Shown here: positions 5,895 to 41,774 of the stretch, piece after piece
How the letters are laid out: the number at the start of each line of letters is the position of its first letter
Position numbering within the stretch: position 1 is the first letter of the stretch
NCBI GenBank assembly: GCA_026770585.1
Contig: MU646528.1
Coordinates: forward strand, 177,287-219,060
Direction of reading: 5' to 3'
Length of the DNA: 41,774 bases
From: Baffinella frigidus
Taxonomy: Eukaryota > Cryptophyceae > Cryptomonadales > Baffinellaceae
Translations under genes and position numbers: made by a program
The notes under the pieces: model-generated
Databases searched by the model: none
The model's input: only the letters and a program-made list of their open reading frames with translations
Told to the model about the DNA's origin: nothing

Positions 5895-8800
5895 ATGAAG
5901 CAGGAAACTCTCATCACCGGGGCGCTGCTCAGCGTCGGCCTGTCCGCGATGTTTGCCGCGTACTTCAACCCGTTGCCGCCCAAGGCCGGGGTCGTGGGGA
6001 TCGACCTCGGGACCACGTTTTCCGTGATCGCGCTGTTCCACAACGGGTCCGTGGAGGTGGTGGCGGACCACTTGAATGAGAAGCTCACGCCGAGCATCGT
6101 CGCGTTCACACCGAAGGGGGTAGTGGTGGGTCGGGAGGCTAGGGAGTACGCGGTGCATCATCCAAAGAGCGTTGTGTTCGACGCGAAGCGTCTCATCGGG
6201 CACAAGTTCGACGAGGCCTCGGTGCAGCACGACATGCACATGTTCCCGTTCTCGGTCGTCGACGCCAACGGCTCCGCGCACATCCGCGTGCAGGATGGGG
6301 ACAAGGAGCTGACCATGTCGCCTGCGAGCGTCGGCGCACACGTTCTGCGAAAGATGATCAAGCAGGTGGAGAAGCACATCGGGCGCCCGGTCACAAAGGC
6401 CGTCATGGCGGTCCCCGCCGACTTCACGGAGGAGCAGCGCAACGCCACCATGGATGCGGGGCGGCAGGTCCAGCCATTGCTCAACCTGCCAGGTTCTGCA
6501 GGGAAGCGTTGATGCCGCCCGCATGGCACCGAGCCTTTGCAGACAGCCCTCGGGTGTATATGCTGTCGCTAGGCCCAGCGGGATCACCCAGCCACACATT
6601 TTCGGTGAGTCACGCGGCTGTTGACTGAACCGGACGCGTTTTGCACAGGGAAAATGACTAAATTCGGCTGGATTGGTTTCAGAAAGATCTCTTTCACCTG
6701 CATGCGGCGCCTTGAGATTCCACGGAACTTCCCACCAAACCTCCAAAACGAGCCAATCGCATCGTTTGTCAACCCCCGATTTATACCACGGGTCGCCTAT
6801 TTCCGGTGACCCCTGGTGCAAATCAGCCTGACGTCAAAAAACGATAACAATGGATTCACTTGGGAGGGCGCGTGGTCTAAGAGGTGCGGAATGGCACTGG
6901 GTACATCTCAAAACCCTAAACTCTAAACCCCAAACCCTAAACCCTAAATCCTAAACCCTAAACCACAAACCCTAAACCCTAAATCCTAAACCCTACACCC
7001 GGAACCCTAAACCCTGCACCCTAAACCCTGGCGCTGGGTACAGGAATACATGGTGGCCATGTTGGTTGCGATCCGTCGAGCGATTCTGGGAAATGCTGGC
7101 CGCTTTTTGTTTTGCTGGTTTGATGATTTGCAGATTTCATTCGTACCACAATTTTCGAAACGGTTCGTTTTAAAGGGCGTAAAACGTTTTTATGGTACAA
7201 ATGAAATCAGCAAAAATCGTCAAACCAGCAATTCAAAAAGCAGCCAACATTCCCCGGAATCGCTCTAACATGGCGGCCATATTAGTTTCGATCCGTTAAA
7301 ATCGCGGTTTACAGGCGGGGCTGGATGTGCTCCGGATCATCAGTGAGCCGACCGCTGCCGCGTTGGCCTACGGTCTGCAACAGGTCAAACCCTAAACGCT
7401 AAATCATAAATCATAAATTATAAACCCTTTGCCCTAAATCCTAAACCCTAAACCAAACCCTAAACCCTAAACCCTAAACCCTAAACCCTAAACCCTAAAC
7501 CCCAAACCCCAAACCCTAAACCCTAAACCCTAAACCCTAAACCCCAAACCCTTTGCTGTGTTGGTGCTAAGCCGGCAAATTACAGCCTCAAGAAGCGAAA
7601 TAAACCGTGATTTGAATTAAATATGTTTCCGCGTTAGATTCAATCTGGTTCCGCTTAAAATGAAATCGGTTTCCGCACTAGATCCCGACGGACGTTCAGG
7701 TGGCGGCTCAGAATCTCGTCCGGGTGAGTATTTGAGTCAAACACGATTCCGGAGATCTCCGAACCGATTTGCAACGAAAATTACTACACGGACGTGACAA
7801 ATTCCGGTGTGTAGTAATTTTCGTTGCCAGCTTGTTTTTGAGTCAAATACTCGACGCGATTAAATCATGTCTTCAGGTGTGCGGTTCAGGGTTGAGGGTG
7901 TGTGTGACGCTCCTCTCCTCATTAGTAGATCCCGGTGGTGAACTCCTGGTATACGACTTCGGGGATCCCCGATCCAATCAGTAACGAAACTTACTACACA
8001 ATTTTTGGGGGACGTGACTGGATGCGTCCCGTGTGTAGTAATGTCCGTTGCAAATCGGATTGGCGATCCCCGAAATCGTATTCAACTTGAAATAAATCGA
8101 TTTCCGTGGTAGATCCTCGCGGCGAACATCCTGGTGTATGACTTCGGGGGGCGGTCGAATCCATATTAACAGGGTAACGTCCTGAAAACCGGGTAGTTAG
8201 GCCTACGGTATTGCCTACGGTAGGCCGTAGGTTTCCTAGGACCTAGGTTTCGTAGGACCCCCCCTAGGCCCCTACGGCCTACCGTAGGCAATACCGTAGG
8301 CTTAACTACCCGGTTTTCAGGACGTTGGCCTATGAATATGGCGATTTTGTTATATTTAAACCACCTTGCCCCCATATTAGGGCTGGGTTTTATGCTATGG
8401 TCAAGCTACGCCGAGGCCGAAGGAATTCCTTCTGGCCGAAGGAAATGGCTCAAGCTCCAGCCTCGATTTGACTTACTTCGGGGGAATCTTTCGGCTCTAA
8501 ATGCAGTATTTGGGGGTGAAATATTTGGGAAATGAAATATTTGGGCTCTAAATGAATATTTTTCCGCGGTAGATCCCCGCGGCGAACATTCTGGTGTATG
8601 ACTTCGGGGGGCGGCCGGTGGAGCTCTGGCCGAAGGAAATGGCTCAAGCTCCTGCCTCGATTTGATCCGCCTCGGGGGGTCTCTCTCTCTCTCTCTCTCT
8701 CACTCACTCGCTCTCTCTCTCTCTCTCTCTTTCTTCATGAGGCTCTAAATTAACTCGGTTCCCGCGGTAGATCCCCGCGGCGAACATCCTGGTGTACGAC

Positions 8801-11800
8801 TTCGGGGGACGGTCGAAACATTATGGGGATTTTGTTACATTAACCACCTTTTTCTCAGGGGTGGGTTTTATACTATGGTCAAGCTATGCCGAGGCTAAGA
8901 CATCGAATTACAGACTCTAGATATCAAAAATACTGTGGATTGAATTAACTCTGTTTCCGCGGTAGATCCCCGCGGCGAACATCCTGGTGTACGACTTCGG
9001 GGGCGGGACGCTCGACGTCTCGCTCCTCTCCCTCGAGAGTGGCGTCTTCGAGGTACGCACACAGCGGGCTACGAAGGGATGTTTTGGCCAATATCTCATG
9101 CAAAAGTTGGCGGGAGACAACTTTGTCTCCCGCCAACTTTTGCATGTGTCCCTATGTCCCTGCGGATGGCCTATGCCCCGACGGATTGCCTGCGGTAGGC
9201 TGCTCGACGTCTCGTTCCTCTCCCTCGAGAGCGGCGTCTTCGAGGTACCCACAGAGCGGGCTACGAAGGGATGTTCTGGCCAATTATGGACGAGAATCGG
9301 TTAGGATGGCCGTAGGAACAACCCTGTATGTCCTTGCGGAGGGCCTACCGTAGGCTCGATGTCTCGCTCCTCTCCCTCGAGAGTGGCGTCTTCGAGGTAC
9401 CCACACAGCGGGCTACGAAGGGATTTTCTACGCACACAACGGGCTACTAAGGGATTTTCTGGCCGATTATGGACGGGAATCGGTTAGAATGTCCGTAGGG
9501 ACATAGGGTAGTGTCCCTACGGGTTTCCTACTGTAGGCTCGACGTCTCGCTGCTCTCGCTCGAGAGCGACGTCTTCAAGGTCCCTCCCGCATTCTCAAGT
9601 CAAATTGTTATGTCTGGTGGAGTTCTTGAAATTTCTGGTTGAGGTACCTCCCGCCCTTCGAAGTGATTTTTTTTTCGTCGTTTCGATTTGTTGGATTTGT
9701 AAAACCGGGGTTTCCACGCAAGAGTGGAGGGCAGAGTGCCGTGTAGGAAAAATAGCCAGATCTGGCTATGTTCAAATGTTCATAATTCAACATTCTCCCC
9801 AGAGAAAAATCGAAATTTCGGGAAGTTGATACAAAGTCCGTGTGAACTGACTTGTTTTCCCAGGTCTGTGTTACACTCTTGCGTGGTTCGTGTGGAAATC
9901 CGCCCTCGTTGAATGATGAAACGTTTACCCTTGAGAGGGCGAGTGGACTCCTGCTGGTTGCGGGTGGTCGCGTACTCCGCGCGACCACCGCAACCAGCAG
10001 GCCGCGCCAGGCCATAAGTCGGATTTTCATTTTACTACACCATCTACGGGTAAAGTTGATTCTCACCAGGGGAACACGCCAAAAGTGTTGGGAATTGGAG
10101 CCCTTCGTGGGCGCTACAATGATTTTTCAACCACCACTCGAGGCTAGAAATGTGACTATTTTAAAACAAGGATTCTTTTACAAGTGAAGAAAAAAATGTG
10201 TAGTACATTTCACACAAATAGGGGCGTTTGGTCACGTATCTGGGGGAATTCCCCCAGATACGTGACCAAGCCTGCCCGTGACTGGTACTAAATTCAACAA
10301 ACCCACATTTAAAATGGTCCCCTCTCTAGCCTCGAGTGGCAGCAGGAGTCCACTCGCGTACTCGCGTACTCCGCGGGAGTTCTGCAGGGCCATAAACTAT
10401 AGACCATAAACATGACGTATTAATTCATTAATACGTACAACTTCCGATTGCTTCAACACACGCAGGACAACCATTTTTGTCTACACAAACTTGATTAAGG
10501 AAACTCAAACCAAACAAAACCTCGATGAGACAAAAACGTGTTCCCGAAAAAATCAAGCTTATTCCCGAAAACTCAGATAAGAATCGACGTGTGCCCGGAT
10601 GCACGGGGTGGCCTCATGCGGGGATGAGCATCTGGTCTGGGGGGAGTATCTGACGCGAGGCGTCAGCTCGCTCCACTTTCATAATCGGAGGTCATAACTA
10701 TAGATTTGTAAAGTCGCTCGTTCCTGGTACAAATTTTAAAATTATTGTCTTTTTATAAAGGAATTGGAGCCGTTTCAAGTTTTGAAAAAGCTGGGTTTTA
10801 TCATTTTCACCACGAAAGCGACTTTACAAATTTATAGTTATGACCTCCCACTATTAACTTGTGGCGTGCATTCCCCCTGAAATCCGGGAAATTGACTTTT
10901 GCAACTGTTCCTCGTCTGATCGTGGGGGTGGGATGCAGGTGGTGGCTTCATGCGGGGATGAGCATCTGGGGGGGGAGGATTTCAACCAGGTCCATCCCAC
11001 CCTTCTCTCAAGTCCTCCCCTTATTTTCTCTAATTGAAGTGAATCCGCCTCAATCTGAATTCCCACCTTCTCTCCCGAATTTAAGTCCCGAATTTAATTC
11101 AGGCGGGGAATTTAATTCTCTGAAGTCCCCCCACTCTTTTCTCCCCTTGCTCGGATAGCGAGGGGTTGAACAGACGTTTTAGGGAATCGATTTAACGATT
11201 ATGATAAGCAAACACGTCCCCGTCACGTCCCCGTCAGCTGAAGGACGCATCTATACGAAACGTGTTTAAACAAGACGCAGAGACCATCGAGAAGATCCGA
11301 TAAGAAGGTCCGCCGTCTACCTAAAACGAGATCCGGCCCCTGGTGAAATGAGATGCGTCGCGGTTGAAATGGATAGGGGCGTATTTCACCCACGCGATAA
11401 GATTCGTGATCTTTACCACCTACGCGTCCTTTTTATTGGTCCGCGTGACCTGGAGATAAAACCTTAAGATAAGTACGTAGGAATTGGAGCCCTTTCTCAG
11501 TGCCCGATGGGCACTGAACTCCCTTGAAGCTGGACGTGACCAGAAAAGCTGACGATTTGTTCAACCCCTCGCTATCCGAGCAAGGAATTGAATTCAATCC
11601 GCCACAATCTGAAATCCCACTCTTCTCTCGAGTCCCCTACCTGAATTTAATTTGACTCGATCTGAATTATATTCACCTCAATTTGAATTCAAACCACCTC
11701 GCTCTGAAATCAATTCGCCTCAATCTGAATTGAATTCACCCTAGTCTGAATTGATTTCACCTCACTCTAAATTACACTCGCCTGGATCTGAATTCAATCC

Positions 11801-14800
11801 GCCTCAATCTGAATTAGATCCACCTAAATATGATCAAATTCGCCTAAATTCACCTCAGTCTGAATTACATCCGCTGCACTCTGAATTACATTCACCTGCC
11901 TCTATGTTAATTTTGCCTCAGTTTGAATTAAATCTGCCTCAATCTGAGTTCAATCCCCATCAATCTGAAATCAGATTTCAATCCACGAGAATCTGAAATC
12001 AAATTGATTTGATCGTCATAATAATGTCCAACAATCCTGCAGGAACTGGTGGAGCACTTGCTGGGGGAGTTCCAGGAGGGCACAGGCCTCGACGCCGGCA
12101 AGGTAGAGCAGCGTGTCTCTCCCACACGGCGGGCTACGAAGGGTCATTTTGAGCCGAGTTTCCGTTACCTTATCCGTAGGAACCCCCCTATGCCCCTACG
12201 GGTTGCCTACCGTAGGGTCGTAGGTCTTAATGCGTAAGGGTTATTCTGAAATCCCTTCGAAGTCCGCTGTGTGGTTAGTTGACACTTTTTCACCGACCTT
12301 GCCAGGCAAGGTCTCACCCCCAGTACCGTACATCTGGTACAAAAGCTGCTGTGGGCACAGGGTGCGACGCTGGCAACGTCTCTCATAAGTTGACACCTTT
12401 TCGCCCATAAGTTGAGGGTCCTATTTACATGTCGGGTTGTAAATATGTGTACCAGGATAGGGTGTTCCAACCTCGCGCCTAGACTAATTTCGCCTAGGCA
12501 CGTGACCAATCGACGAAATTGGAGAACCTACTGGGAGAGTTCCAGGAGGGCATAGGCCTCGACGCGGGCAATGTAGAAAGACCCGGTCCTAGGGGGGGGG
12601 GNNNNNNNNNNNNNNNNNNNNNNNNNNNNNNNNNNNNNNNNNNNNNNNNNNNNNNNNNNNNNNNNNNNNNNNNNNNNNNNNNNNNNNNNNNNNNNNNNNN
12701 NNNNNNNNNNNNNNNNNNNNNNNNNNNNNNNNNNNNNNNNNNNNNNNNNNNNNNNNNNNNNNNNNNNNNNNNNNNNNNNNNNNNNNNNNNNNNNNNNNNN
12801 NNNNNNNNNNNNNNNNNNNNNNNNNNNNNNNNNNNNNNNNNNNNNNNNNNNNNNNNNNNNNNNNNNNNNNNNNNNNNNNNNNNNNNNNNNNNNNNNNNNN
12901 NNNNNNNNNNNNNNNNNNNNNNNNNNNNNNNNNNNNNNNNNNNNNNNNNNNNNNNNNNNNNNNNNNNNNNNNNNNNNNNNNNNNNNNNNNNNNNNNNNNN
13001 NNNNNNNNNNNNNNNNNNNNNNNNNNNNNNNNNNNNNNNNNNNNNNNNNNNNNNNNNNNNNNNNNNNNNNNNNNNNNNNNNNNNNNNNNNNNNNNNNNNN
13101 NNNNNNNNNNNNNNNNNNNNNNNNNNNNNNNNNNNNNNNNNNNNNNNNNNNNNNNNNNNNNNNNNNNNNNNNNNNNNNNNNNNNNNNNNNNNNNNNNNNN
13201 NNNNNNNNNNNNNNNNNNNNNNNNNNNNNNNNNNNNNNNNNNNNNNNNNNNNNNNNNNNNNNNNNNNNNNNNNNNNNNNNNNNNNNNNNNNNNNNNNNNN
13301 NNNNNNNNNNNNNNNNNNNNNNNNNNNNNNNNNNNNNNNNNNNNNNNNNNNNNNNNNNNNNNNNNNNNNNNNNNNNNNNNNNNNNNNNNNNNNNNNNNNN
13401 NNNNNNNNNNNNNNNNNNNNNNNNNNNNNNNNNNNNNNNNNNNNNNNNNNNNNNNNNNNNNNNNNNNNNNNNNNNNNNNNNNNNNNNNNNNNNNNNNNNN
13501 NNNNNNNNNNNNNNNNNNNNNNNNNNNNNNNNNNNNNNNNNNNNNNNNNNNNNNNNNNNNNNNNNNNNNNNNNNNNNNNNNNNNNNNNNNNNNNNNNNCT
13601 CTCTCTCCCTCTCGCTCTCTCTCCTGACAACGGCCTCTCCACACACAGGATGTCGAGGCTGTCGAAAGGCTACGCGTCGCGGTGGAGAAGGCCAAGGTTC
13701 CATCCGTCCTCCCAACATTATCTCAGAAAACGAGTTCTAAAACTCGTTTTCTTAAGTCAATCCCCCTACAAATTCGTCAACTTATTCTTTACTCTCCGCA
13801 TAAGTTGACAAATTTATAGGGGAATTGACTTAAGAAAACGAGTTTTAGAACTCGTTTTCTGAGATAAAACAGAGACACCCTTTATTCCTTTCAACACGGC
13901 CGCCATGCCACACAGCGGGCCGCGAAGGGTTTTCTCTTCTTCTTCTTCTTTATTACCCTCACATGGTGTGCGCCATGGGGACCTCGAGAGAGGCCCCCCA
14001 GCCTTTTGAAAAGTGATCAACTTAAAACTACTCTAATACCGCGATGTTTTCTATCGCATGCTGGCCAAGCATCGCTTACGATATCCGTAGGACCAGCATC
14101 TGTCCCTGCGGCGTTGCATACCGTATTGTACTTTTCGGGTCAGCGCGGATTTTCTCGAGGTCGGGTCGGGGAGTCGGGAAATGAAAATCTCGAAAATCGA
14201 TGCGTCCATCTAAAGTTTTATGCTGTCTTATGCATTGATATGATGACAAGATGCACCCCCCACCCATAATATGTACAAATACTAGAAGCCCTTTTTCGAT
14301 ATTTTCGATTTTTCCCGACTTCCCGACCCCGACCCAAAATCCGCGCTGACCCGAAAAGTACAATAAGGTCCTGTGGATGATTCACGCGTGGGTCATGCAC
14401 GGTATCCCTTCGTAGCCCGCTGTGTGGTATGCACGCCCACATGTGCTATGTCACAAGCGGACTATTCGTGTCGTTTGCGGCTGGCGGATTTGTACCAGAT
14501 ATCCCCGATTTCGGGTAACCCCTGGTACAAATCGGGGGTTGGCCGAGCGTGTGGAGCGGCTGCACGCCACAGGGTTTGAGGTTGGGGGTTGAGGGTTTAG
14601 AGTGGAGGGTTTGGAAGGCCAGGTTCGGTCGGAAAGGCTGGAATCTCATCCGGGCGAGTATTTCATTTTAAATACTCGGTCCAGCAGGGAGTCCAATTTC
14701 CTGAGCCTAAATCAGGCTATGGAACTAGCTTGATTGGGCTAAGGTTTGGCTGAATTTTCCTATTTGATAGGAGCTGTCGAGAATATAAATTAAATCCGCG

Positions 14801-17800
14801 ATAAAATCGAGCAAGTGTTTTCGCCCTTACGGTATCGAAACGCGCAGGTGTCGTTGAGCGGGATGCAGAGCGTGGGGATAGCCGTGCTAGCTGCCTGATT
14901 CAATCTCGGAACTTCCCTGAATCACTTGCACTTTTATGCTATCTTATGCTTGAGGTTTATGCCTCAAATAGCACATACACCCTTATTGTAAGCGTTGGAA
15001 GCCTTAAGATGCGCCCATCGAAACGCGCAGGTGTCGTTGAGCGGGGAGCAGAGCGTGGGGATTGATGTGCCTGACTTCCACGGCGGAAAGGTGCCCTCCC
15101 TTTATGAGACTCTTCGTTTCAGCTAGGAAAAAGCAAGGACCCCCAGAACGTTTTGTCCTGGTTTTGTGTAGTGCCCTTCCCCACTGACTAAAACTAAAAA
15201 CTACAACAGGTTTCAGTTTTCAAAACACACCACACAACTGGTGGTTGTGCTCAAGTGGGACTGACTGGTTTGTTCTCTCACACAAACACGCCCTGGGCAG
15301 GAAATGTTGCATCGTATACCCCATAAATCAACACAGCATACGTTAATTACCTCGAGGAAATTAATACCAGCATACGTTAATTACCTCGAGGAAATTAATA
15401 CCGAGAGGCATTGCGCGCGCAGACCAGCTCACACTCACAACGTGTAGAGAGCACATGACCTCTCTCGCCCCCCCTGCTCAAACACAGCCTCAGTGGGGGT
15501 GCATACATCGCGTCATGCCGTGTTGGTAGAAACACTAGAGAGGCCTCTCTCGAATCAGCACCTAGAAACTCACGCGCCTTGCGACCTGACGCCCCCTCTT
15601 GTGGGTATCTATCTTTCTAGGCTCTAAGGGCACCCAAGCATGCAAGGTTATGAGGCCTCCAAAGTAGATTCACTTAGGAGTCCAAAGTAGATTCACTTAG
15701 GAGTCCAAAGTAGATTCACTTAGGAATCCTCACAAGCGTGCGTCCGTGATGCGGGCGTGGGCAAAGGATCTGAAAGACTCGCGATGCAGGAATGTTGGTG
15801 CACCAACATCCCTGCACCAACATTCGCGGTGCAGGAATGCACCGCGGGGGAGCATCGGGTAGGCGCGTGAGTCTCTAGATCCTGATGCGAGAGAGACCTC
15901 TCTAGTGTTACTAAAAAAAAGGCATGACGCCATGTATGGGGTACTCGAAATCGCCGTGGGTGGTAGTGATCAAGGTCTTTCTCTGACACACACACGACCT
16001 TGGCAGGGGCTTGCACGATTACTCAAATCCAGTACAGCATGCAAGGATATAACACCCAAACCCTACACCCAGGGGCTCGGGCTAGAGATGACGCGGGAAC
16101 ACGCAGAGGAGATCTGGAAACCGCTCTTCAGGTTACGAGCCTCCCTAACCGCCGGTTGACTCATCTCATGTGAAAACGGTTTTAAATTAAACCCGTGGGA
16201 GTCAATGAAAATTACTACTCGAATGCTTTAACATCACTAATACAGATCATGATGTGTAGTAAATTTCATGGCCCAAAGGTGTTGAATTAAAACCGTTTTC
16301 GTATGAAATCCGCATACGCCGGGTGGCTAATCGCTGATATACGCAGTACTACCTGTGCCCGGTTTAGCCATCGTCCTGGTACAACAACTGCCCGGGATTG
16401 GCAAGTGGGACTCTCGTTTGACCATGAGTTGGACCATTCACTCGTGAATGCTGTAGGGTCCTGTTTACATGTGGGGTTGTAAATATTTGTACCAGGATAG
16501 GGTGTTCCAACCTCGCGCCTGGACTAATTTTGTCTAGTTATGTGATCAATCAACGAAAGTTACCACACAAATGCCCACTTTTAAAAGGACATCGGTTTTA
16601 AATAGGCCCCTTCAACATTCTCGTGTGGATAGGGGTGTCACCCAGAGCCTCGGTGGGGGCGCATACCCACACGATGGGCTACGAAGGTTTCATTGGGGCT
16701 GGAATTCAAAGTGTAACGTGACCAAATTGCACCAGAAAATCCGTAAAGTCAACTACCTCAAGGCAAGTGGACTTTCGATGAAAGGTTCGTAGTCCACTGT
16801 GTGGAAGGCGGCTGCGTTTATACTAACAAAGGTCTCTCTCGGTGTGGAACCCTAAACCCTAAACCAAAAACCTAAACCCTAAACCCTAAACCAAAAACCC
16901 TAACCCCGAAACCCAAAACCCTAACCCCGAAATCCTAAACCCTAAACCCCAAACCCCAAACCCTAAACCCTAAACCATAAACCATAAACCATAAACCATA
17001 AACCATAAACCCTAAACGCAGCCGGGCGCTGTGGCCGATCGAGCAAGTGCTGAGCATCTCGGGGTATGAAAAGGAGGACGTCAACCAGATCGTCCTGGTA
17101 TTGCCCGCACACCCCCAGCGGTTTTCTGTTTCGAACCGTGCCTCCTCTCTCTCTCTCTCTATCTCTCTATCTCTCCCTCCCTCCCTCCCTCCCGTCCTTC
17201 CCAGCGGTTGTCTGTTTCGAACCGTGCCTGGTAGCGCGGTGTTCACGTCTGCTGGCCACGAAACGAATGAAACGTTTCATTTTGTTCATGGCCTCCAGAT
17301 GCGAAAACCGCTCCACCCAAGAATGACCAAAGAATGAAACGGTGCATTCAAAGAATGAAACGGTTCATCCAAAGAATGAAACGGTTCATCCAAAGAATGA
17401 AGCTGTTCGTTCTTCCGGGCTGTTGGCGGATCCGTGGGTGATTGCTGACAGCGGACTTCCCCGGTGCAGGTGGGTGCAACACACCCGTGGGCGTGAACAC
17501 CACACTTGTGGGAGTGAAGAACACACACGCGGTCGTGATTGCTGACGTTTTGGTAGTAATAACGGTCTTTCTATGGTCTCTGCTGACGGCGCGGACGCTC
17601 TCGGTGCAGGTGGGGGGCACGACGCGGGTGCCGAGGATACGCAGCATGATCCAGGACTTCTTCAATGGCAAGGAGCCCAACTGGCAGGTCCGTCCACGAG
17701 CCCTCCGAGGCGCCTCAAATCTCGGTTTTGACCTCTTGGCCCTCGGCCGGGCTTTTGAGCCATCTTGGTTCGAATTCGAACCGCGCAAAGGAGCCCAACT

Positions 17801-24740: not shown

Positions 24741-24776
24741 TTTGAAGAGCACGATGTGCTTGATCGGCATTTTTTG
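24741..24776 (-). repeat. Copy of the Dabb gene start
   Basis: The minus strand reads AAAAAATGCCGATCAAGCAC and on, i.e. the start codon and codons MPIKHIVLFK, about 525 bp upstream of the true start. It then diverges. Confidence 0.82.
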
Positions 24777-26447
24777 CTTTGTGTCCGCTTTTTTTGAGTC
24801 TGAGATCCCATTGGGACATTGATTTAGGTCATGACCCCATTTCTCTCTCCCCCCCCCCTCCGCTGTCTCTCTCTCTCTCGCGCGCGCGCGCTCTCGCTTG
24901 CACGCTATGTATCTCGCTCTGTCTCTCTCTTACGCGCACACACAGGCAGATCATTGGCAGTGATAAAAGATTAAAGGGGGGGAGACACTTTTTACCACTG
25001 ACTGCGTCTGATTTCTGATTGCTGGATCTAGTAGAGAGCACCCGGTTTTGCGTCGGACGGAAGGTATGCCGAGATCCGTTGGAAGTCGGACTTCGCGTGC
25101 GGGGCAACCAGCGGTGGGGGCAGAGTAGCGGAACACGCAAGGCAGTCACGACCGACCGTCTGGCTTCGGCGTCCGCGTGACCGGTCACGCGGGCGTTCAC
25201 GAGCCTGGTTTTGCGTCGGACGGAAGGTATGCCTACTTGGGACTTGCTCTACTTTAGGTCCTTTAGGTTTTAATTTCTCCCAACATAGCCCAACGACACG
25301 CCCTTCCGTAGAAAGGACTGCAGAGAAAGCATTTTTGGCTGACTTGCAGCTCCTTGTTAGCATAAGGAAACTTTATTATCCTTTTTTAACCTCTTTTGAA
25401 CTACAACAAAGGTCTTTGTCTTTGTCTTTTGTACATCACTTTTTCAGCACCAGCAAGGTGTTTTTCCAAAAATCCTATCGGGAACTCCGATATGTTGTAA
25501 GTAAACTCGGTTTCTCAAAAGTCTACACTGTCTTGTTCGCAGTCCGAGGGTGAGACGTTCTCCCACCACCACTTCCGTTAGGGGTGGTCGCAGGCTGCAA
25601 ATATAACTCGATTGAGTGATATTTGCAGCCCGCAAATATAACAACGCCCAATTGTGGACTACCGTTTAGCCGGTGTGTGCTGCGATCCTCTGCACCGGGG
25701 GGCTTGATGTGATCCGAAAGGAAGCGTGGCTTTTTTGCAGAACAAGTTGCAGTGTCCGCCTATGTTGGGAGCTCGAAGAACCTTGAGGAAATAAAGGACC
25801 GTCTCACGTCTCCGAAAGCAGGGGTCCCTTCTGAAATGGATGGCCCGGGCTCTCTAGCCTTCAATCTTGCAGCCAGCGCCATTCTTCTTTGTTTCTACTC
25901 TCACGGTGCAAAATTCCATGGGCTTTAAGACGGGCCCCAAGAGAGCCACCCTGTATCCCCTCTTCACGAGCCTCTGCACTGGAGAGCTAAACGCGATCCG
26001 AAAGCAAAAATGCGTTTTCTGCAGTCCTTTCTACGGAAGGGCGTGTCGTTGGGCTATGTTGGGAGCATGTAAAACCTAAAGGACCTAAAGGGCCCATCTG
26101 CGATGCAGAGCGAGTCCTCGAAAGTGGCCATCTTCAAAAGTGAACGTTCGCACGAAAGGAAGCATGGTCTTTCTACAGAGCAAGTTCCGGTGTCCGCCTA
26201 CGTTGGGAGCTCGAAGAGCCTCAAATCCCTAAAGGACGGCCTATGCCATTCCACATCGCATTTTCAATACATAAATTACATGTATGGCATTCCACGCTCC
26301 CCATAAGCCTGTTTCTGCCCCCCCCCCCCCCTTAGACTCACAACCTGAAAGAGTGTAGACTAGGTTATGAGTGTAGGGTAATTAGCCCACACCCACACTC
26401 CCTCGCCCTTTCACTCCCACTTGTCCCTCTACACCTGCTCGCCACGA

Positions 26448-32012: not shown

Positions 32013-35000
32013 ATGCCTGAGCGCGAGGGCACGCCTCGTGCGTGGAGAGGGCTTGCACTGCTGCTCCTCGCCGTCGTCGTCGGGGCGGGCGAGAGCAGGG
32101 TGCGCGAGCTCACGAGCGACGACTTTTCAGCAGCCGTCGGACGGTCCCAGCATGTGCTGGTGCAGTTCTATGCGCCGTGGTGTGGACACTGCCGCGCGAT
32201 CGCGGGGGACTACGAGTGGCTGGCGGAGTTGTACGGGGATGCCGAGGACACACTCATCGTGAAGGTCGATGCTGACCGCCAGAAAATGCTGGCAAACGCT
32301 CACGAGATCGCGGGATATCCCACCATCAAGTTCTTTCCCAAGGGTGCCAGCACCGCCTCGGACGTTTACAACGGAGACCGCGCCGCCCAGAAAATGGTCC
32401 GCCTCCCCTCCGACCAGAAGCCGACCCGTCTTCTACCGCACTTTTCTCGACGCTCTTGTGCCCCTCAGCTGCAATCTCTGGCCAGCCATCCTCCCAAGAG
32501 GAGAGATATGATACACGGGTAAGGGTGTGGGACTCAGATGTTCCTTCCTGCACTCCAAAAGTACCACCCCGTAGCTGCAATCTCTGGCCAGCCATCCTCA
32601 TCACAAGAGCAGAGATACAAGGGTGTGGGACTGAGATCGAGCTCCTGTGGACAGGTGGCCTACCTCAATTCGGTGACTGGCAACAACGTATTGTACGACA
32701 CCCACCCCTCATTGCCCTGGCGGGCACCCTGCTGCATCCGCTCTTTTCATGGTTGCCTTGCAATCGGAAGGCGACGTCTAACTCTGTCCCAGTCTCATTC
32801 TTCCTCAGCAATTTGGTGAGCCCGGGCTCGTTTTCGCTCGAAAGTTGACGGATTGATACCGGAAACCCAGAGCGACAACTTGAGAATAGTTGGTGAACCC
32901 GATTGAGGCAGAGCTAGGAAGTTCAGGGCGGCATCGGCGTGGGTTGCTCTGCTCCCACCCCTAAAACCCACACCCTAAATTCTAAACCTCAACCCTAACT
33001 TCTGAGACCTAAACCCCACGCCCTGAACCCTGAACCCTAAACCATAAACCACAACCCCAAACCCCAAACCCCAAACCCCAAACCCCAAACCCTAAACCCT
33101 GAACCCTAGACCCTGAACCCTAAACCCTAAACCCTAATCCCTAAACCCTAGACTCTAACCCCCAAACCCCAAACCCAAAATCCTAGACCCTAGACCCCAG
33201 AACCTGAACCCTAAACCCAAAACCCCAAACCATAAACCATAAACCATAAACCCTAGACCCTGGACCCCAGACCCTAAACCCTAAACCCTAAGCCCTAAAC
33301 CTCTAACCCTGAACCCTAAACCCTAAACCCTAAACCATAAACCATAAACTAGACCCTAAACCATAAACCCTAAACCCTAAACCCTGAACCCCAAACCCTA
33401 AACCCCAAAACCCAAAACCCAAAACCCAAACCCCAAACCCAAAACCCCAAACTCTGGACCGTAAACCCTCAACCCTCAACCCTTAACCCTCAACCCTTGA
33501 CCCTGACCCCCAACCCCTACACCCTAACCCCTAAACCCTAGACCCTAGAACCCAGACCATCAACCCTAAGCCCTACGACCTAAACCTAAACCTAAACCCC
33601 AAACCCCAAACCCTCAACCCTAAACCCTAGACCCCAGACCCCAAACCCTAAACCCTAAACCCTAAACCCTAAACCCTGAACCCCAAACCCTAAACCAGAA
33701 CCCCAAACCCTAAACCCTAAACACTAAACACTAAACCCTAAACCCTAAACCCTAAACCCCAGATCCTAAACCCGAAACCCCAAACCCGAAACCCGAAACC
33801 CGAAACCCGAAACTCTAAACCATAAACCCGAAACTCTAAACCCCAAACCCCAAACCCCAAACCCCAAACCCCAAACCCTAAACCCTTAACCATATACCCT
33901 CTACCCTTAACCCAAACCCTAAACCCCGAACCCGAAACCCGAAATCCGAAACCTTAATTCCTAAACCCCCATCCCTAAACCTCAAACCCTAAACCCTACA
34001 CCCTAAAACCTGAACCAGGTTCAAGCCACAGTCGTCGGCAGTGGTGGAACTCGATGATGGCAACTTCGAAAGTGTGGTGAGCAAAAGTCATTTCCAGGAG
34101 CAAAGTCATTTTCATGAGCAAAAGTCATTTCCGTGTGGTGGGGCCAGGCTCTGTTGCAGTCTGTTTGATCTCACCAAGTTGGTGAGACCGTGCACTTTTC
34201 CGTTCCAAAATTGACGGATTTGTACCGCAGACCCAGCATGTCAACTTGAGAATAGTCGGTCAACCCAGGTGAGGCATGGCTAGGAGGCAACTTTGATGCT
34301 GTGGTGAGCAAAGTCATTTCCAGGAGCAAAGCCATTTCCTTGAGCAAAGTCCTTTCCATGAGCAAGTTCATTTTCAGTTGGAACCAGTGATTGATTCTGG
34401 GAGAAGGGTCCTTCTAGGGGCGCAAATCGGGGTTCTTGCTGCCATGTTATTGTCGAAATGGGCTCCGCGCGGAAAAAATCGAGGTCAGGTCAGCAACATT
34501 TTTTCAATTTTTTTGCCTTTTTGTGTCATCTTATGGGTGGGAGATGCTACTTTGAGATAAAAACCATGCCTAGGATAGCATGAAAGTCCATTTTTTGGAA
34601 ATCTTCTTGATTTCCTGACCTGACCTCGATTCCGCGCGAAGCCCATCTCGACAATACTACCCAGACTCCGTCACGTTAGGCTGAGAGAAAGCTACGTGGT
34701 CTCGAAGTCTTGAGGTTTGATTATTTCCCAAGTCATTTCCATTGGCCTTTTGTCTGAGAAACTCTCCAGACATCTGATTAATTCCTAAGTTATTTCCATG
34801 GGCCTTTTGCCCGAGAAACTCTCCTAAAGTGGCCATTTCTGTACCAAATAATAGAAAGAATCATACGACAATGTGAGCACGCGTAGAAATATCCCTCTAG
34901 AGGCGCACGGCGCGTTTGCCTGTCGCAGTTATTTTGGTCGCAGTTATTTATTTTTGTTGGTTGGGGGGCAGAGGGCAGTTTTGTAGGGAAGGGGGAAAGT

Positions 35001-38000
35001 GATGGCTCAGAACGAGAACGTTGAGGCGCATTCCCGGTCACACTTTTATCCGGGGAAATCTATTTTTCTTTCATTTGATGGCAATGAAAATTACTGCACA
35101 ATTCGCTCCTATTAGTAATATTAAAGCATTCGTGTAGTAATTTTCATTGGAATCAAATGAAAGAAAAACAGGTTTCCCCGGATAAACTTCGGAACACATA
35201 ATCATGGGAGCGTCTTCCTGAAAAGCAGAATCTCCGCTAAATTGAGACCGAGTTAATTCCAAGATGTTTTCTTCCCAGAACAGAGGGTGTCAGGGTAGTA
35301 ACATGGCAGCACCCCTGATTTTCAAAACCTTTAATCAGAGCCAAGCTCGGGACGAGCACATGAACCCTACATCCTAAACCCTAAACACTAAACACTAAAC
35401 ACTAAACACTAAACCTCATCCCTGATCCCTGAACCCAAACCCCTACACCGTGAACACGATACCCGAACCCCTAAACCCTAAACCCTAAACCCTAAACCCT
35501 ACGCCATACGCCCTAAGCCCAAACCCTTAAACCCTAAACCCTAAACCCTAAACCCTAAACCCCGAACCCAAACCCCTGCAGATGCTCGATGCAAAAAAAC
35601 ACGTACTCGTCCAGTTCTACGCGCCGTGCCACACGAGAACGCTAAAGGGGCCTATTTAAAACCTACGTGCTTTTAAAAGTGCGCATTTGTGTCCTGAAGT
35701 TTAATTTCCTCAAGGAAAGTTGACTTTTGATACGTGACTCTGCGAAAATTGCACAGTCAGGAGGTTACCTTACCTTATCCTGGTACAAATATTTACAACC
35801 CCACATGTAAATAGGATCCTCCAGCATTTTCGAGTGGTGGTGCAGGCACTGCAAGCGGCTAGCGATTCCCAGCGCTGCCTCACTCGGGTTGACCGACCAT
35901 CCTCAAGTTGTCATTCTGGGCGTTCGGTACAAACCTTATCTCAGAAAACGAGTTCTAAAACTCGTTTTCTTAAGTCAATTCCCCTGCAAATTCGTCAACT
36001 TATTCTTGACTCTCCGCATAAGTTGACAACTTTGTAGAGGAATTGACTTAAGAAAACGAGTTTTAGAACTCGTTTTCTGAGATAAAACCCGTCGACGTTG
36101 GGGCTGAAAAGATCCCGGGCGCACCGAATCGGTGAGCCCGAATAGACCGAGCCAGAGCTAGGCCTCGCATGGTGATACCGGTCCCATCACCTGATAGAGT
36201 TTATCTCAGATTTGGCTTGGCGCTCAAGTTATTTCGTATTTACATAGACTGAGGCAGGACGTCGCGTAGGGTTTCGACGCACAAAAAATACACGCCCCCG
36301 CGAGCACGAAACCCAACCCCTAAACCCTAAACCACTGTTGGTGCTCAATTCAAAAAAACACGCCTCCGTGAACACGAAACCCAACCCCTGAACCCTAAAC
36401 CCGTGTAGGTGCTCGATGCAAAAAAGCGCGCCTCCGTGAACACGAAACCCAACCCCTAAACCCCAAACCCTTGTAGGTGCTCGACGCAAAAATACACTCT
36501 TCCGTGAACACGAAACCCAACCCCTCAACCCCAAACCCCTGTAGGTTCTCGATGCAAAAAAGCACGTACTGGTTCAGTTCTACGCGCCGTGGTGCGGGCA
36601 CTGCAAGCGGCTAGCGCCCGCCTATGAGAAGGTGGCGAAGGCCTTTCGAAAAGAGGTGAGCGCCCCACCGTTCATTCGAGAATCCCACGACTCTAAACCT
36701 GGTAGGTGTGTTACTAAACCGGGTAGGTGTGTACCAGAATGTCCTCTGATTTGTCAACAGTTGTGGACTCTCGTGGATCCCAACACCCTGGGAGGTCAAA
36801 GTTCTCTTCACCGGCGCCCAACACCATGGCGGCATATGTTGGGGTCTACAGCAAGGGCCTGGATGGGCCGAATTTTCCGTCTCGGTGGGTCACCTCGTCG
36901 CGACAAGAAACCCTAAACCTTAAGTATCCACACCACGGCGTATAGAACTGCACCAGCACATTCTGCGACCGTCCGACGGCTGCCGAAAAGTCGTCGCTCG
37001 TGAGCTCGCGCACCCTGCTCTCGCCCGCCCCGACGACGACGGCAAGGAGCAGCAGTGCAAGCTCATCTCCACAAAAGTATTAATTGATTGCTTTTGGCGC
37101 AACGAAATTTACTACACAAACGCTCTACTATGATTTTTATGAGCAAATCGTGTAGTAATTTTCGTTGCCGAAAAGCAATTAATTAATACTTGTATGGAGA
37201 TTAAAGCCCTCTCCACGCACGAGGCGTGCCCTCGCGCTCCGGCATGCCTTGCGCCTTCCTTTAGGATCCCGCAGCGGGAAGGCGCAAGCACGACCGGATT
37301 CCGGTCGCGTCGGGATTTTTCAGTCAACCGAACGCACCGTCACCAGCGCGCTGATTTAGGATGGGTGGGACGACGGCGGTGCGGTGGGCGGTGCTGGTGT
37401 TGTGCGTGGCAGGGTTGGTAGCGGGCGTACGCGGGCAGTTGGAGCCCTTTGGACAGGTCCAGGACGACCACGCGCTCTCGTGTAGGACGTCCATTTGCTC
37501 TCGTGTAGGATGGCCATTTGCTCTCGTGTAGGACGACCATTTGCTCTCGTGTAGGACGGCCATTTGCTTTCGTGTAGGACGGCCGTTTTCTCTCGTGTAG
37601 GATGGTCACGCGCTCTCGTGCTTCGCCCTGGATTCTCAACCCAAAATCCCTGATCCTAGAAACACGCACTCCTTTCCTGGGTATCTAATCCTAAACCGCT
37701 TCCGAGCGAGAAGGGAACAGTCCATCTAAACGTAATCCATAGGCCCTACGGTAGGGACATAGGGGGTTCCTACGGAAAAGCCAAGGTCGATTTTCGACCT
37801 TGGCTTCTGATTTCATGCCAAACTCGCTCGGCAGCGGACTGGCCCTGGAAACACGCACTGCTTTCTCGGGCACGGGCCCTTAGAGGCTTAGCTGCGTCGT
37901 CGATTGCCGCTCGTTTTCTTTGCGGCCCTGAATAAATTTTATTTCAGATTTGGCTTGGCGTTTGAGCCATTTCGTTTTTTTCGGGCTTTAAAATACCAGA

Positions 38001-41000
38001 ATCTGTACCGGAAATCCTCTAGACAGACGTCTTGCGAAATATAATCTAGTAAGTGGCGCGATGAGTTCGCTGAGGCTCCTCAGCAGCGGGCGCGGGGTGG
38101 GTTCCAACATCATCCCGCCAGGCATTTAAATTCAATGCTCGAAATGTATACTTTTGGCGTCATGTTCTGGCTAAAGTGGCCAAATTGGCAGCTTCTGACG
38201 CCAAATGTATGCATTTCGAGCATTTGATTTACATGCCTGGCGGGATGAAATCCTGCGAGCAGGAATCGGTGGTGATTGCGGGGTGGGTTCCAACGCATCC
38301 CCCACGTGGAACAGCCCCGCCGGCAGGCTCTTGAGCGCCCGCGTGACCGGTCACGCGGACGCCGAAGCCAACTGTCCGAGGTGACTGCCTTGTCATGTCC
38401 CGAAACCCGAATCCTCCAGGTCCTCTCCATCATGATTGCGGGGTGGATTCCAACGCATCCCCCGAGAGCAGACAAGGGGGTTATGCACTTGTAAGAGTTG
38501 TGAAAACATGCATGGGCGGTTTCCAACGCACCCCCCCTGCGCAAGAGTGTAGGGCAGAGTGCCGTGTAGTAAAAATAGCCAGATGTGGCTATTTTGAAAA
38601 GTTCATAAGTCAACATTATCCGCCGAGAAAAATCGAAATTTCGGAAAGTTGGTACAAATTCCGTGTGAACTGACTTGTTTTCCCAGGTCCGTCTTACACT
38701 CTTGCGTGGCCGCGAGGTGGAGATGGCGGTTTGGATTCCAAGAAGTAGTCTGAGTGACTTTACATAAGTCCGGTAGCCTGTCGGGCCAGCCGGGGTGCGG
38801 GTGGGTTCCAACGCACATCCTGCGAGCAGGCATCGGTGGCGATGGCGGGGTGGCTCCGAGAGAGAGCGAGAGAGAGCGAGAGAGCGAGAGAGCGAGAGAG
38901 CGAGAGCGAGCGAGAGAGAGAGAAAGCGAGAGAGAGAAAAAGCGAGTGAGAGAAAGAGAGACAGAAAGCGAGACAGAGAGAGAGAGAGAGACAAACAGAC
39001 ATGCAGGCAGATTCCAACGCACTCCTCGCGAGCAGGGATCGGTTGTGATTGCGCGATACGACGCAGACCTGTTCAAGCCCTACGCGGAACGCTACAACGT
39101 GCAAGGGTGCGAACTGCCTCCTCCCCCCCCCCCCACACTTGCCTACGCCGAACGCTACAACGTGCAAGGGTGCGGACACCCCGACTCCCCGACACTCGTG
39201 ACACCTCCTAGCTCCGACCCAGTCTATTTGCGATCCCCAATTTGGTGGACCCGGGCTCTGTTCCGCCCCAAAGGTAACGGACGCTACAACGTGCAATGGT
39301 GCGCACTTCCCGCCTCCTAGCTGTGTGTCGCGGTCTATTTCGGCTCGTTTCCTCCCCAAAGTTAACGAATTTGTAGGCCTACTCAAGCCCTGCGCGGAAC
39401 GTTACAACGTGCAAGGGTGCGGACACCCCGACTCCCCGACACTCGTGACACCTCCTAGCTCTGACCCAGTCTATTTGCGATCACCAATTTGGTGATCCCG
39501 GTCTCTTTCCCGCTCTAAAGTTGACGGATTTGTACCGCACACACAGAATGTCAACTTAATGATAGTCGGTCAACCACAGTGAGGCAGAGCGACACCTCGC
39601 CGCGCGTGCAGCGCCCTAGGTTCGTCGCAGCGCAGAAAGGACAGCGGTACCGGATGGGCTGCGATGTTTAGGGTTTGGGGTTCAGGTGCACGCTGATGCC
39701 CCCTCCAGGCCGGACCTCTGTTGGTGGCTACTCTACTGTTCCTGCGGAAAGCGTGGGGGGGGGTGAGTGACGTCCCCCGCAGCCATCATATCAGCGCAGA
39801 GCTGATAACCTGATAAGTTCGCAGAGCCGATAACCTGATAAGTTAAGATATATGAGCTGATCTGAAGCTGATATCAAACCTGATAAGTCGCAGAGCTGAT
39901 AACCTGATGAGTTCCAGATATCTGAAGCTGATCTGAAGCTGATATCTTGGATGACCCTGATTTATCAGCGTCTGGCTCTGTTAAATCCGACCACTCTCCA
40001 GCTGACGACCCAACCCTACCTGTAGGTACCCTACAATCAAGTTCTTTGGGGTGGTGACCAGGGGGGGGGCACCCTCAACACCGCAGCCCGGTTTAGGGTG
40101 TAGGTGCAGGCTGGTGTCACCTCCAGGCCGGATCCTTGTTCGCGGCGTCCGTACTGTCCCGCAGTCATGTGAAAAGCTAACGCCAGTGAGGTACCTACAG
40201 CCTACGGATTGCCTACAGTAGGAGCCCCCCTCCCAGGACTTTTAAAGACATTTTTGTTTTAAACGTCGTAGGAGGAGGGGGGGTTCCTACCGTAGGCTAA
40301 GGGGTCCGCTGGCGTTAGCTTGTGGCATTAGCAGGACCGGAGAGAAAAAATGAGTGAGGCAAAAGGGAGCGAAAAAACGTTATGGGAGAATGAGTGACGT
40401 CCCCCATACCGGCAGGTATCCCACGATCAAGTTCTTTGGGGTGGAGACCAAGGGAGGGACGCCTTACGAAGGAGGGAGGTGAGCTGCTCCTCCGATTTCT
40501 AGCTCTGACTGAGTCGGGTTGACTGATCGTTTTCACGTCAAAACCTCCCTCCTTAGGAAGGAGGGAGGTGAGCTGCTCCTTGCCACACCAGAATGATCGA
40601 GGGAAACCGACGCCTTATCCACGTCAGATTCTACGTGGTTGACTTAAGTATTCAAGGGATTTCCCTTGAAAGATGTCAAAAGTGGATGTTTCGAGTGCCC
40701 TGGTGTGGTCGGTTTTCGGGTTTGGTGGTTAGGAACTAGGGTGTCGGAAGGGGTGGAGACCAAGGGGGGGACGCCTTACGAGGGAGGGAGGTGCGCTGCT
40801 CCTCTGCTGCTGTTTGCTAACCTCTGATGTTTCCTTTCCTCTGCTTTTTCCTAACCACATGGTGGACTACGAACCTTTCACCACAAGTCAACTTACCCAG
40901 GAGGTAGTCAACTTTAAGGATTTCCCAAAGAAAATTTGGTCACGTTACCGCTAAATCTAGGGGAACCGAAACCCTGGTAGCCCACCGTGTGGCCTCTGAT

Positions 41001-41774
41001 GTTTCTTAACCTGGACAGCATCCCGTAACCTGCCCCATGTGCCCCCTGCCACCAACCTCAAGATGATGCAACACTCTCTTTAGCTCTGCCTGGGTCGGGT
41101 TGGCTGATTTTTTTTCACGTCAAAGTTGACGAATATGTACTTCACACCCGGCAAATCAACTTCCAGTCTCCCCAAGGCTGGAGGGGACCAGATTAACTCA
41201 GGCGAAGCTAGTCTCTGTGTGGTGAGGACGCAAGAAGCCGCGTCCTGCTGACATAAACACAAGACGTGAGACTGGGGCCTCTGGCAGGGACCTGGTCTGC
41301 CAGAGGCCTGATGCGATCCGAAAGTAAAAATGCTTTTTCTGCAGATCTTTTCTACGGAAAAGCGTGTCGTTGGGCTATGTTGGGAGAAATCAAAACCTAA
41401 AGGACCTGAGCGTGGGCGCCGAAACGGTCTGCGTGCGGAAGGAAACCGCATTCCACGGGACTGAAACCTCTGGTGGCAGGGACAGGTGGAACAGCCCCGC
41501 CGGCAGGCTCGTGAACGCCCGCGTGACCGGTCACGCGGACGCCGAAGCCAACTGTCCGAGGTGACTGCCTTGCGTTGTACTGTAGTCGGAGAGTGGGGCG
41601 CACCGTTCAGGTGGGGCTGAAACCTCTGGTGGCAGGGACTTCTAGCTCCGCGTCACTGAGGTTGACTGACTATTCTCGAGTTGACATGCTGGGCGGCCTC
41701 TGGCAGGGACCTGGAGTCGTTTGTGACGTTCCTCAACGGGAAGGCACATACCTTCCGTACCGCTGACGGCACTC
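32013..41774 (+). CDS. Protein disulfide isomerase with two thioredoxin domains, seven exons, 3' end outside window
   Basis: Exons: 32013-32396, 32655-32687, 34032-34076, 36545-36655, 39036-39106, 40416-40478, 41707-41774 (runs off the window). All phases agree. A signal peptide (residues 12-26, [15 protein letters not shown]) precedes thioredoxin domain a with FYAPWCGHC (C57, C60) and cis-Pro GYPTIKFF. Exon 2 gives [11 protein letters not shown], exon 3 [15 protein letters not shown], and exon 4 the second active site [10 protein letters not shown] (C171, C174). Exons 5/6 give [19 protein letters not shown] and [17 protein letters not shown]; exon 7 gives [20 protein letters not shown]. The tandem a-a layout followed by a further C-terminal part is that of the PDI-D (ERp38/PDIL2) subfamily of plants, algae and other eukaryotes, which form and isomerise disulfides in the ER lumen. 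Whether a D domain and an ER-retention signal follow cannot be seen. Exons 3-7 all have edge copies in the adjacent introns. Confidence 0.93.
32777..32918. mobile_element. F7 element, ~140 bp, PDI intron 2
   Basis: Carries AAAGTTGACGGATTTGTACC-like sequence and ends GAGGCAGAGCTAGG. Other copies: 34146-34284, 39455-39590, 41081-41212, a copy split by F5 at about 35870-36155, and a half copy at 39208-39270. Confidence 0.78.
32945..34030 (+). repeat. 1.1-kb CCCTAAA-type field in PDI intron 2
   Basis: Almost pure CCCTAAA, CCCCAAA, CCATAAA and CCCGAAA variants. It stops at AAACCTGAACCAGG, just before the acceptor of exon 3 (34032). Confidence 0.9.
34284..34335 (+). repeat. Donor-side copy of PDI exon 3
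   Basis: GNFDAV codons, GTG|GTGAGC donor and the intron start (CAAAGTCATTTCCAGGAGC) repeat the end of exon 3 (34032-34076) 230 bp downstream. Confidence 0.82.
34449..34656. repeat. 208-bp inverted repeat in PDI intron 3
   Basis: Arms TGTCGAAATGGGCTCCGCGC...GAGGTCAGGTCAG and complement. Confidence 0.82.
35082..35149. mobile_element. F4 core element in a palindrome, PDI intron 3
   Basis: Ends CAATGAAAATTACTGCAC / GTGTAGTAATTTTCATTG. Flanked by inverted arms CGGGGAAATC...TTTTTCTTTCATTTGATG (35052-35182). Confidence 0.87.
35360..35580 (+). repeat. CCCTAAA-type block before the split PDI exon-4 copy
   Basis: Runs from CATGAACCCTACATCC to AACCCAAACCCCTGCAG, i.e. up to the acceptor of the exon copy at 35582. 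Confidence 0.85.
35582..35864 (+). pseudogene. Upstream copy of PDI exon 4, split by a 209-bp element
   Basis: After an intact CTGCAG acceptor, 35582-35628 encodes [15 protein letters not shown] and 35838-35864 continues with the GCAGGCACTGCAAGCGGCTA part of the active-site codons. In between, 35629-35837 is a TIR element with CCACACGAGAA...TTTTCGAGTGG ends and a possible TG target duplication. This copy cannot be used as an exon without a break. Confidence 0.85.
36270..36545 (+). repeat. 68-bp tandem array of the PDI exon-4 acceptor
   Basis: Units begin at 36270, 36341, 36409 and 36477, and the fifth runs into the real exon at 36545. Each unit holds CACGAAACCCAACCCC, CCCTAAA-type sequence, an acceptor-like TGTAG (lost in the 36341 unit) and the exon head GTGCTCGATGCAAAAAA. 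The period is 68 bp, so most upstream acceptors would put the exon out of frame. Confidence 0.9.
37100..37167. mobile_element. F4 core element in a palindrome, inside the inverted promoter copy
   Basis: Ends CAACGAAATTTACTACAC / GTGTAGTAATTTTCGTTG. Flanked by inverted arms AGTATTAATTGATTGCTTTT (37068-37200). It interrupts the copied PDI signal-peptide region. Confidence 0.87.
37464..37625. repeat. 23-bp minisatellite grown from copied coding sequence
   Basis: About seven units of the pattern TAGGACGGCCATTTGCTCTC. The unit derives from the duplicated membrane-protein codons GACCACGCGCTCTCGTG. After the array the copied coding sequence resumes (CACGCGCTCTCGTGCTTCG), so the array expanded inside the copy. 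Confidence 0.8.
38111..38247. repeat. 137-bp inverted repeat in PDI intron 4
   Basis: Arms CATCCCGCCAGGCATTTAAA...TGCTCGAAATGTATAC and complement. It directly precedes an exon-5 acceptor copy. Confidence 0.82.
38253..38853 (+). repeat. Acceptor-side copies of PDI exon 5
   Basis: 38253-38285 and 38821-38853 repeat TGCGAGCAGG-ATCGGTGGTG with GATTGCG, i.e. the acceptor and first codons of exon 5 (39036). Around them the intron tail motif GGGTGGGTTCCAACGCATCC recurs at about 38099, 38281, 38440 and 38800. Confidence 0.8.
39145..39423 (+). repeat. Three donor-side copies of PDI exon 5
   Basis: 39145-39180, 39271-39303 and 39385-39423 repeat YAERYNVQ codons; the first and third keep the donor CAAGG|GTGCGGACACC, the second is changed to CAATGGTGCGC. 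All lie downstream of the complete exon 39036-39106. Confidence 0.88.
39790..39970. repeat. Tandem GATAACCTGATAAGTT-type repeats
   Basis: Units around AGAGCTGATAACCTGATAAG and GATCTGAAGCTGATATC, five or more degenerate copies in PDI intron 5. Confidence 0.75.
40026..40060 (+). repeat. Acceptor-side copy of PDI exon 6
   Basis: TGTAG followed by codons YPTIKFFGV repeats the head of exon 6 (40416) 390 bp upstream, then breaks off. Confidence 0.88.
40174..40321. repeat. 148-bp inverted repeat in PDI intron 5
   Basis: Arms AAGCTAACGCCAG and GCCTAC-rich stretches with complement. A weaker inverted repeat with CCACACCAGAATG ends is at 40583-40708 in intron 6. Confidence 0.75.
40549..40803 (+). repeat. 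Two donor-side copies of PDI exon 6
   Basis: 40549-40581 repeats GGAGGGAGGTGAGCTGCTCC; 40749-40803 repeats the codons GVETKG...TPYEGG with donor GAG|GTGCGC. Both follow the intact exon. Confidence 0.85.
41277..41645 (+). repeat. Acceptor-side copies of PDI exon 7
   Basis: CCTCTGGCAGGGACCTGG at about 41277-41297, and shorter versions CTGGTGGCAGGGAC at about 41468 and 41627, repeat the acceptor and first codons of exon 7 (41707). The shorter ones could in part be chance. Confidence 0.68.

Follow-up and report, generated by a model that had tools for sequence, protein, structure and literature searches.

One-sided partial copies of exon edges in the long introns of a cryptophyte alga, probable relics of serial tandem duplication

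The window, a stretch of 41,774 nucleotides from Baffinella frigidus, belongs to an assembly of 382 Mb in 1,364 contigs and, judged on its sequence, is nuclear DNA of a cryptophyte alga. An HSP70-family gene, labelled HSPA13 in the original prediction and so called here, occupies 5895..20054 of the forward strand with 13 exons and a full open reading frame; the first ten relatives of its protein show 72–75% identity, the named ones among them being from the cryptophytes Rhodomonas and Hemiselmis. Its exons with edge copies are exons 3 (8966-9052), 4 (10939-10989), 5 (12043-12102), 7 (15031-15090), 10 (17610-17687) and 12 (18818-18878). On the same strand lies a gene for a protein disulphide isomerase (PDI; 32013..41774), with seven exons up to the window end: 32013-32396, 32655-32692, 34019-34076, 36545-36655, 39036-39106, 40416-40478 and a seventh from 41707 that is cut by that end. 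The spliced aligner and our hand model give the same PDI exons, and all seven match the 374-residue protein P0121, encoded on a contig of 1,213 nt, at 100% identity. Since the gene is spread over more than 9.7 kb, we infer that this contig must be RNA-derived. The reverse strand carries a small gene of three exons, which we take to encode a DABB protein (intact exon 1 at 24219-24117), and an IQ-like gene (5459-156), for which four exons were modelled with boundaries set from reading frame and phase, and one relative was found, covering 64% of the query. Internal exons are short, with a median of 60 nt (n=35), and likely GC donors follow HSPA13 exon 11 (at 18123) and DABB exon 2 (at 23571).

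Other genes of the same genome were modelled alongside these. HSC70, C190, C1204 and C1133 are HSP70 relatives retrieved by a Pfam search and chosen regardless of copies, and CCT1 came from a separate Pfam search, likewise not picked for copies; the names HSC70, CCT1 and DABB are presumptive, being assigned by resemblance. For C1133, 3 of 15 aligned pieces were used as the others looked unreliable, and C39, a second CCT-family gene with a partial model, was left out of the scoring.

The splice sites of these genes have distinctive surroundings. Of the 52 acceptors and 52 donors of seven genes, 21 and 19, respectively, have a CCCTAAA-like sequence no more than 33 nt away, as compared to 243 of 1,844 intron windows, and this is strand-specific, the reverse TTTAGGG being found at none of the 52 acceptors, none of the 52 donors and in 8 of the 1,844 windows; a sense-strand TTTAGGG would itself offer an acceptor. 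Examples of telomere-like repeats abutting splice sites are 7387-7552, 16848-17017, 18756-18815 and 33008-34016. After an intron, 15 of 38 exons start with GT, while inside exons GT follows G in 49 of 1,261 cases (six modelled genes), which fits either intron gain at proto-splice sites or a strong consensus. Further repeats include a fold-back core, 68 bp long except at 7772 (55 bp), that recurs at 7772, 7982, 16203, 17902, 35082 and 37100 in the middle of longer palindromes. At four of these six sites the outer arms are inverted, site-specific copies of the flank (scores 34–60; the other two score 12 and 26), and the core either targets palindrome centres or makes its flanks palindromic by inserting. 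A family of short inverted repeats with poly-G/C runs and ends like TACAGGGGTACCTCGC is present in many copies, among them 19076-19188, 19503-19657, 20375-20497, 20587-20710, 20777-20899, 21281-21401, 21420-21541, 24532-24656, 26778-26899, 29240-29358, 29817-29937 and 30049-30169. Minisatellites with a period of about 21 nt occupy 11641-12005, in an HSPA13 intron, and 27505-27946, in the 27-kb region.

Copies of exon edges were searched for up to 2.5 kb from each junction and were catalogued if they scored at least 36 and reached at least 6 nt into both the exon and the intron. In HSPA13, all on the forward strand, exon 3 is preceded by copies of its acceptor and head at 7925-7964, 8087-8154, 8561-8614 and 8748-8812, each with the AG intact; three of them hold nt 1–41 of the 87-nt exon and the copy at 7925-7964 holds nt 1–37 with only 4 intron nt, for which it was excluded from the crossing count. 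A weak fifth upstream copy is nearly pure intron. The same exon is followed by copies of its tail (nt 45–87) and intact GT donor at 9202-9274, 9354-9424 and 9537-9581, the last excluded as it holds 2 intron nt, and a 183-nt tandem array detected by Tandem Repeats Finder (9246-9581) overlaps these. Acceptor-plus-head copies also lie upstream of exon 4 (10597..10649, with AG changed to AC) and exon 7 (14834..14887), and tail-plus-donor copies downstream of exon 5 (12520..12577, exon nt 8–60 of 60, excluded with 5 aligned intron nt), exon 10 (17788..17808, a short copy of score 37, also excluded) and exon 12 (19186..19253).

In PDI, again on the forward strand, a tail-plus-donor copy follows exon 3 (34286..34331), and a copy of the exon 4 acceptor with nt 1–72 lies upstream in two parts, 35573-35628 and 35837-35864, with an insert of roughly 200 nt, read by eye, between them. 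A 68-nt tandem array (36282..36566) enters the exon 4 acceptor and head, its units containing copies of both. Exon 5 has two upstream copies of its acceptor and first 18 nt (38251-38280, 38806-38847) and three downstream copies of its tail and donor (39142-39177, 39278-39317, 39375-39424), and exon 6 has one upstream acceptor-plus-head copy (40003..40068) and two downstream tail-plus-donor copies (40551-40580, 40750-40804). A short acceptor copy upstream of exon 7 (41272..41295, score 41) includes 8 exon nt only. The segment 36918-37421 holds material of another kind, an inverted copy of PDI exon 1 (91.7% identity over 48 aa at 37061-36918 and 14 of 14 aa at 37245-37204) together with, by eye, the inverted start of the divergent neighbouring gene.

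On the reverse strand, the IQ-like exon at 495..621 is preceded by four crossing copies and a partial one, among them 755-656, 868-803, 922-884 and 1079-1032, and followed by three copies downstream (434-377, 330-262, 209-156), and a 104-nt tandem array (552-869) overlaps its region. The exon at 2795..2874 has downstream copies at 2328-2219, which spans the whole exon and reads CG for the acceptor AG, and at 1632-1556, which starts from exon nt 10. The same gene contains two near-identical exon-like copies, 3468-3417 and 3201-3150, each with AG before and GT after it, which are possibly exclusive exons, and an inverted copy was seen by eye near 2110. In DABB, junction-crossing copies were found at none of four junctions, and its start codon and exon 1 head are copied at 24742..24780 (reverse strand), upstream of the intact exon 1. 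Exon-edge copies in neighbouring introns, as originally predicted, are thus real in HSPA13, PDI, the IQ-like gene and other genes of the genome. The predicted numbers hold for HSPA13 exon 3 (five upstream, the weak one included, and three downstream), PDI exon 5 (two and three) and PDI exon 6 (one and two), and the "many" upstream and three downstream copies predicted for the IQ-like exon are those given above. The prediction had placed all of this within 7682..41645; the copies themselves are confirmed, with the IQ-like gene lying outside that interval.

With a self-match of HSPA13 exon 1 removed, the catalogue contains 33 crossing copies from 16 exons and 20 junctions; of the six genes involved, three lie in the window. 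All 18 acceptor copies lie upstream of the intact exon and all 15 donor copies downstream. In a separate alignment test, in which a copy had to cross the junction and simple repeats were masked, junctions were skipped if more than 25% of their 65-nt window was masked or N, leaving 85 tested of about 113 in the models; the IQ-like gene was left out of these 85 since it lacks transcript support. At a score of at least 40, a crossing copy was found at 19 of the 85 junctions of eight genes: 5 of 21 in HSPA13, 7 of 11 in PDI, 1 of 3 in C190, 2 of 3 in C1204, 2 of 23 in CCT1, 2 of 4 in C1133 and 0 of 16 in HSC70, besides the DABB null result. Of the nine genes examined (these eight and the IQ-like one), six have crossing copies in the stricter catalogue, and CCT1 has them in the test at a score of at least 40. 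The fixed polarity claimed for the copies was borne out at all 19 junctions: 11 acceptor junctions have a copy upstream and none downstream, 8 donor junctions have one downstream and none upstream, and acceptor copies downstream or donor copies upstream, though looked for, were not found. By comparison, for 2,104 control windows from non-dispersed intron, copies occur both upstream (174) and downstream (208).

The orientation and content of the copies constrain their source. Inverted crossing copies were found at none of 62 junctions (score 50) and none of 23 in CCT1 (score 40), and intron control windows read backwards gave no match at the same thresholds. As the copies hold intron next to exon sequence, genomic DNA was their source, and since none of 38 exon pairs from six genes has a copy across the spliced exon–exon join, that source was not mRNA; retrocopying was rejected on these grounds. 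If a tandem duplication crossed an acceptor, only the downstream unit would continue into the rest of the exon, and if it crossed a donor, only the upstream unit would continue the exon. The incomplete unit would hence fall on the side where it is observed, and the polarity follows without any further rule. Two expectations of tandem duplication are seen directly, namely the direct orientation and the incomplete unit on the predicted side (11 to 0 for acceptors, 8 to 0 for donors). Insertional duplication, in which double-strand breaks are filled with captured nearby DNA that includes exon edges by chance, would account for copies that are short and within 2.5 kb (the range searched), much like the vertebrate repair-mediated duplications described in PMC2671141. 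By our reasoning it should leave copies both before and after the exon and in both orientations, as against 0 of 19 on the wrong side and 0 of 62 and 0 of 23 inverted, which makes it highly improbable.

Accordingly, we consider it probable that the long introns grew through serial head-to-tail duplication of genomic DNA and that the exon-edge copies are its relics, and we predict that splicing ignores these copies as they are one-edged. The units would later have been separated by deletions and insertions. Three arrays, with periods of 104, 183 and 68 nt, still adjoin without a spacer, and their units hold the junction or its copy; most pairs consist of non-adjoining units, and in ten of these pairs the spacers of 27–412 nt are explained only in part. 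Some spacers do evoke transposons. Dispersed or inverted sequence makes up 64% of the spacer of HSPA13 exon 4, 64% of that of exon 12 and 92% of that of PDI exon 3, and pairs of inverted repeats lie inside the HSPA13 exon 4 and PDI exon 6 spacers, so that insertions of fold-back transposons, through long target duplications or induced repair, could have left an exon edge on both sides of the element. Against this origin, six of ten spacers contain 0% dispersed sequence and one contains 25%, as compared to 28% of introns overall, and the spacer-free arrays exist; it is thus quite unlikely for the copies as a whole, and the idea that the spacers are transposon inserts was rejected as a general one.

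An artefact of assembly, with false duplications produced by haplotype joining or short-read errors, might be suspected from the 1,364 contigs and the many stretches read as N. Yet there are several copies per exon, they have diverged by several per cent with indels, one of them is split by an insert, and more than two haplotypes would be required, leaving this explanation barely credible. Tandem duplication was also part of the original prediction, coupled to selection that keeps the one complete exon. The duplication is upheld by the polarity at all 19 junctions and by the consistent lack of inversion, while the selection is plausible only: none of the 33 crossing copies is a complete exon with both dinucleotides, as against about 8.6% expected from the block and exon lengths, a suggestive deficit with p about 0.05 by our reckoning. 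At HSPA13 exon 3 the acceptor copies stop at nt 37–41 and the donor copies begin at nt 45, and acceptor and donor copies are likewise free of overlap at PDI exon 5 and at C1133 exon 2; at PDI exon 6 they overlap, one donor copy beginning at nt 23 and the acceptor copy ending at nt 43.

The presence of copies is related to intron length. In seven genes, and with introns of untestable junctions counted as lacking a copy, copies are found in 0 of 20 introns shorter than 300 nt, 1 of 15 of 300–700 nt, 4 of 10 of 700–1,200 nt and 8 of 9 of at least 1,200 nt. The 13 introns with a copy have a median length of 1,228 nt and the 41 without one a median of 302 nt (p=8.8e-7). This relation to length is the strongest argument for taking the copies as traces of intron growth, and among the options that the original prediction had left open this is the one that fits best. 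Length may be a proxy, as it is confounded with gene identity and probably with expression.

A different question is whether junctions are special targets. Pooled over seven genes at a score of 50, 15 of 62 junctions have a crossing copy versus a permuted mean of 6.3 (p=0.0004), an approximately 2.4-fold excess; individually, PDI has copies at 7 of 11 junctions versus 83 of 286 non-dispersed intron windows, and CCT1 at 2 of 23 junctions versus 13 of 368 intron windows (score 40). These figures are what a mutational process aimed at splice junctions, for example through nicks or R-loops at exon edges, would yield by making crossing duplications commoner. In contrast, HSPA13 has no excess (5 of 21 junctions versus 90 of 336 non-dispersed intron windows), and HSC70 has no crossing copy. 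Coverage by blastn pairs, a measure set aside in favour of the alignment test described above, shows no clear excess, with 11 of 40 junctions covered versus 21% of intron positions in HSPA13 and 27% in PDI. Junction copies should stay visible longer, since a copy of exon sequence diverges on one branch and a copy of intron sequence on two, and by our reasoning an excess of up to roughly two-fold is predicted from this frozen exon side by itself. Where at least 15 intron nt are aligned (16 copies), the exon side shows 6.0% mismatch and the intron side 10.0%. The frozen exon side is therefore expected to explain part of the 2.4-fold excess; it may fall short of the whole, as the exon/intron difference over all 33 copies is small (7.2% versus 9.0%). 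We thus regard a junction-aimed process as unlikely and claim none, junctions being special only moderately. The original prediction treated junctions as extraordinary targets, which is not sustained since local copies are plentiful in plain intron too; what is extraordinary is how dense local duplication is in long introns, rather than the junctions by themselves. Runs of G were considered separately as a cause of breakpoints and dropped, 5 of 26 exonic breakpoints lying near a run of at least four G with 3.7 expected.

The real exons are spliced next to these near-perfect decoys. The decoy dinucleotides are intact in 15 of 18 (AG) and 15 of 15 (GT) cases, so that selection against them is not seen in the 33 crossing copies; by our reckoning this retention is about the chance level at 7–9% divergence. 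P0121 matches decoy-free splicing of PDI exons 1 to 7, although as one assembled product it leaves room for occasional use of a decoy. With short exons and long introns, splice sites are expected to pair across the exon (PMC6142364). A median exon of 60 nt and copy-bearing introns with a median of 1,228 nt supply the setting for such exon-wise pairing. Short exons between long introns would be recognized across the exon, and acceptor-only or donor-only pieces would stay unpaired; decoys may thus be tolerated by way of exon definition. The intact dinucleotides and the two complete exon-like copies of the IQ-like gene (3468-3417, 3201-3150) could also point to a regulatory role in splicing, with the copies serving as functional decoys or alternative exons. 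As retention is close to chance, PDI splicing is clean in P0121 and a complete exon is absent from all 33 crossing copies, such a role is very unlikely.

Going beyond these genes, we tentatively propose, as a possibility that we hold somewhat less probable than its converse, that introns of this lineage expand by tandem duplications that repeatedly re-copy the junction and that strict exon definition spares only the one-edged copies, producing a datable fossil record. Long introns are usually attributed to transposons; here the exon provides a fixed reference by which duplications can be recognized, oriented and roughly aged, and the strict one-sidedness separates tandem duplication from insertion. 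With real junctions next to diverged AG and GT copies, exon definition outside animals and plants becomes directly testable, and the echoes, if truly such, would be a natural experiment on how the spliceosome rejects near-perfect decoys.

A literature search on one-edged exon copies returned no description that we recognized as this pattern, and several known systems come near it. Duplicated or mutually exclusive exons and pseudoexons are exon-like intron copies with splice dinucleotides; unlike duplicated exons, the crossing copies here are one-edged, and none is included in the PDI protein P0121. Introner elements, for example those of Amoebophrya, are dispersed families that make whole introns. 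Both they and the echoes are repeats that shape the introns of algae or protists, whereas each copy here belongs to one exon edge. In intron gain by partial exon duplication, as set out in a 2010 study (PMC2891723), a piece of exon is duplicated and its copy turns into an intron. That system shares with ours the head-to-tail duplication of a gene piece including splice-site-like sequence; it differs in that here the exon–intron junction and intron are copied, often repeatedly, and never across the spliced joins of the 38 pairs. Repair-mediated duplications have a mean of 162 bp, a donor less than 5 kb away and one case of an inverted exon copy in an intron in a 2009 report (PMC2671141). They have in common with the present copies the short local copying and the exon sequence in an intron; they are insertions with the exon copy inverted, whereas here side and orientation are fixed. 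Thus, the pattern is a variant of known processes, well explained by tandem duplication during intron expansion.
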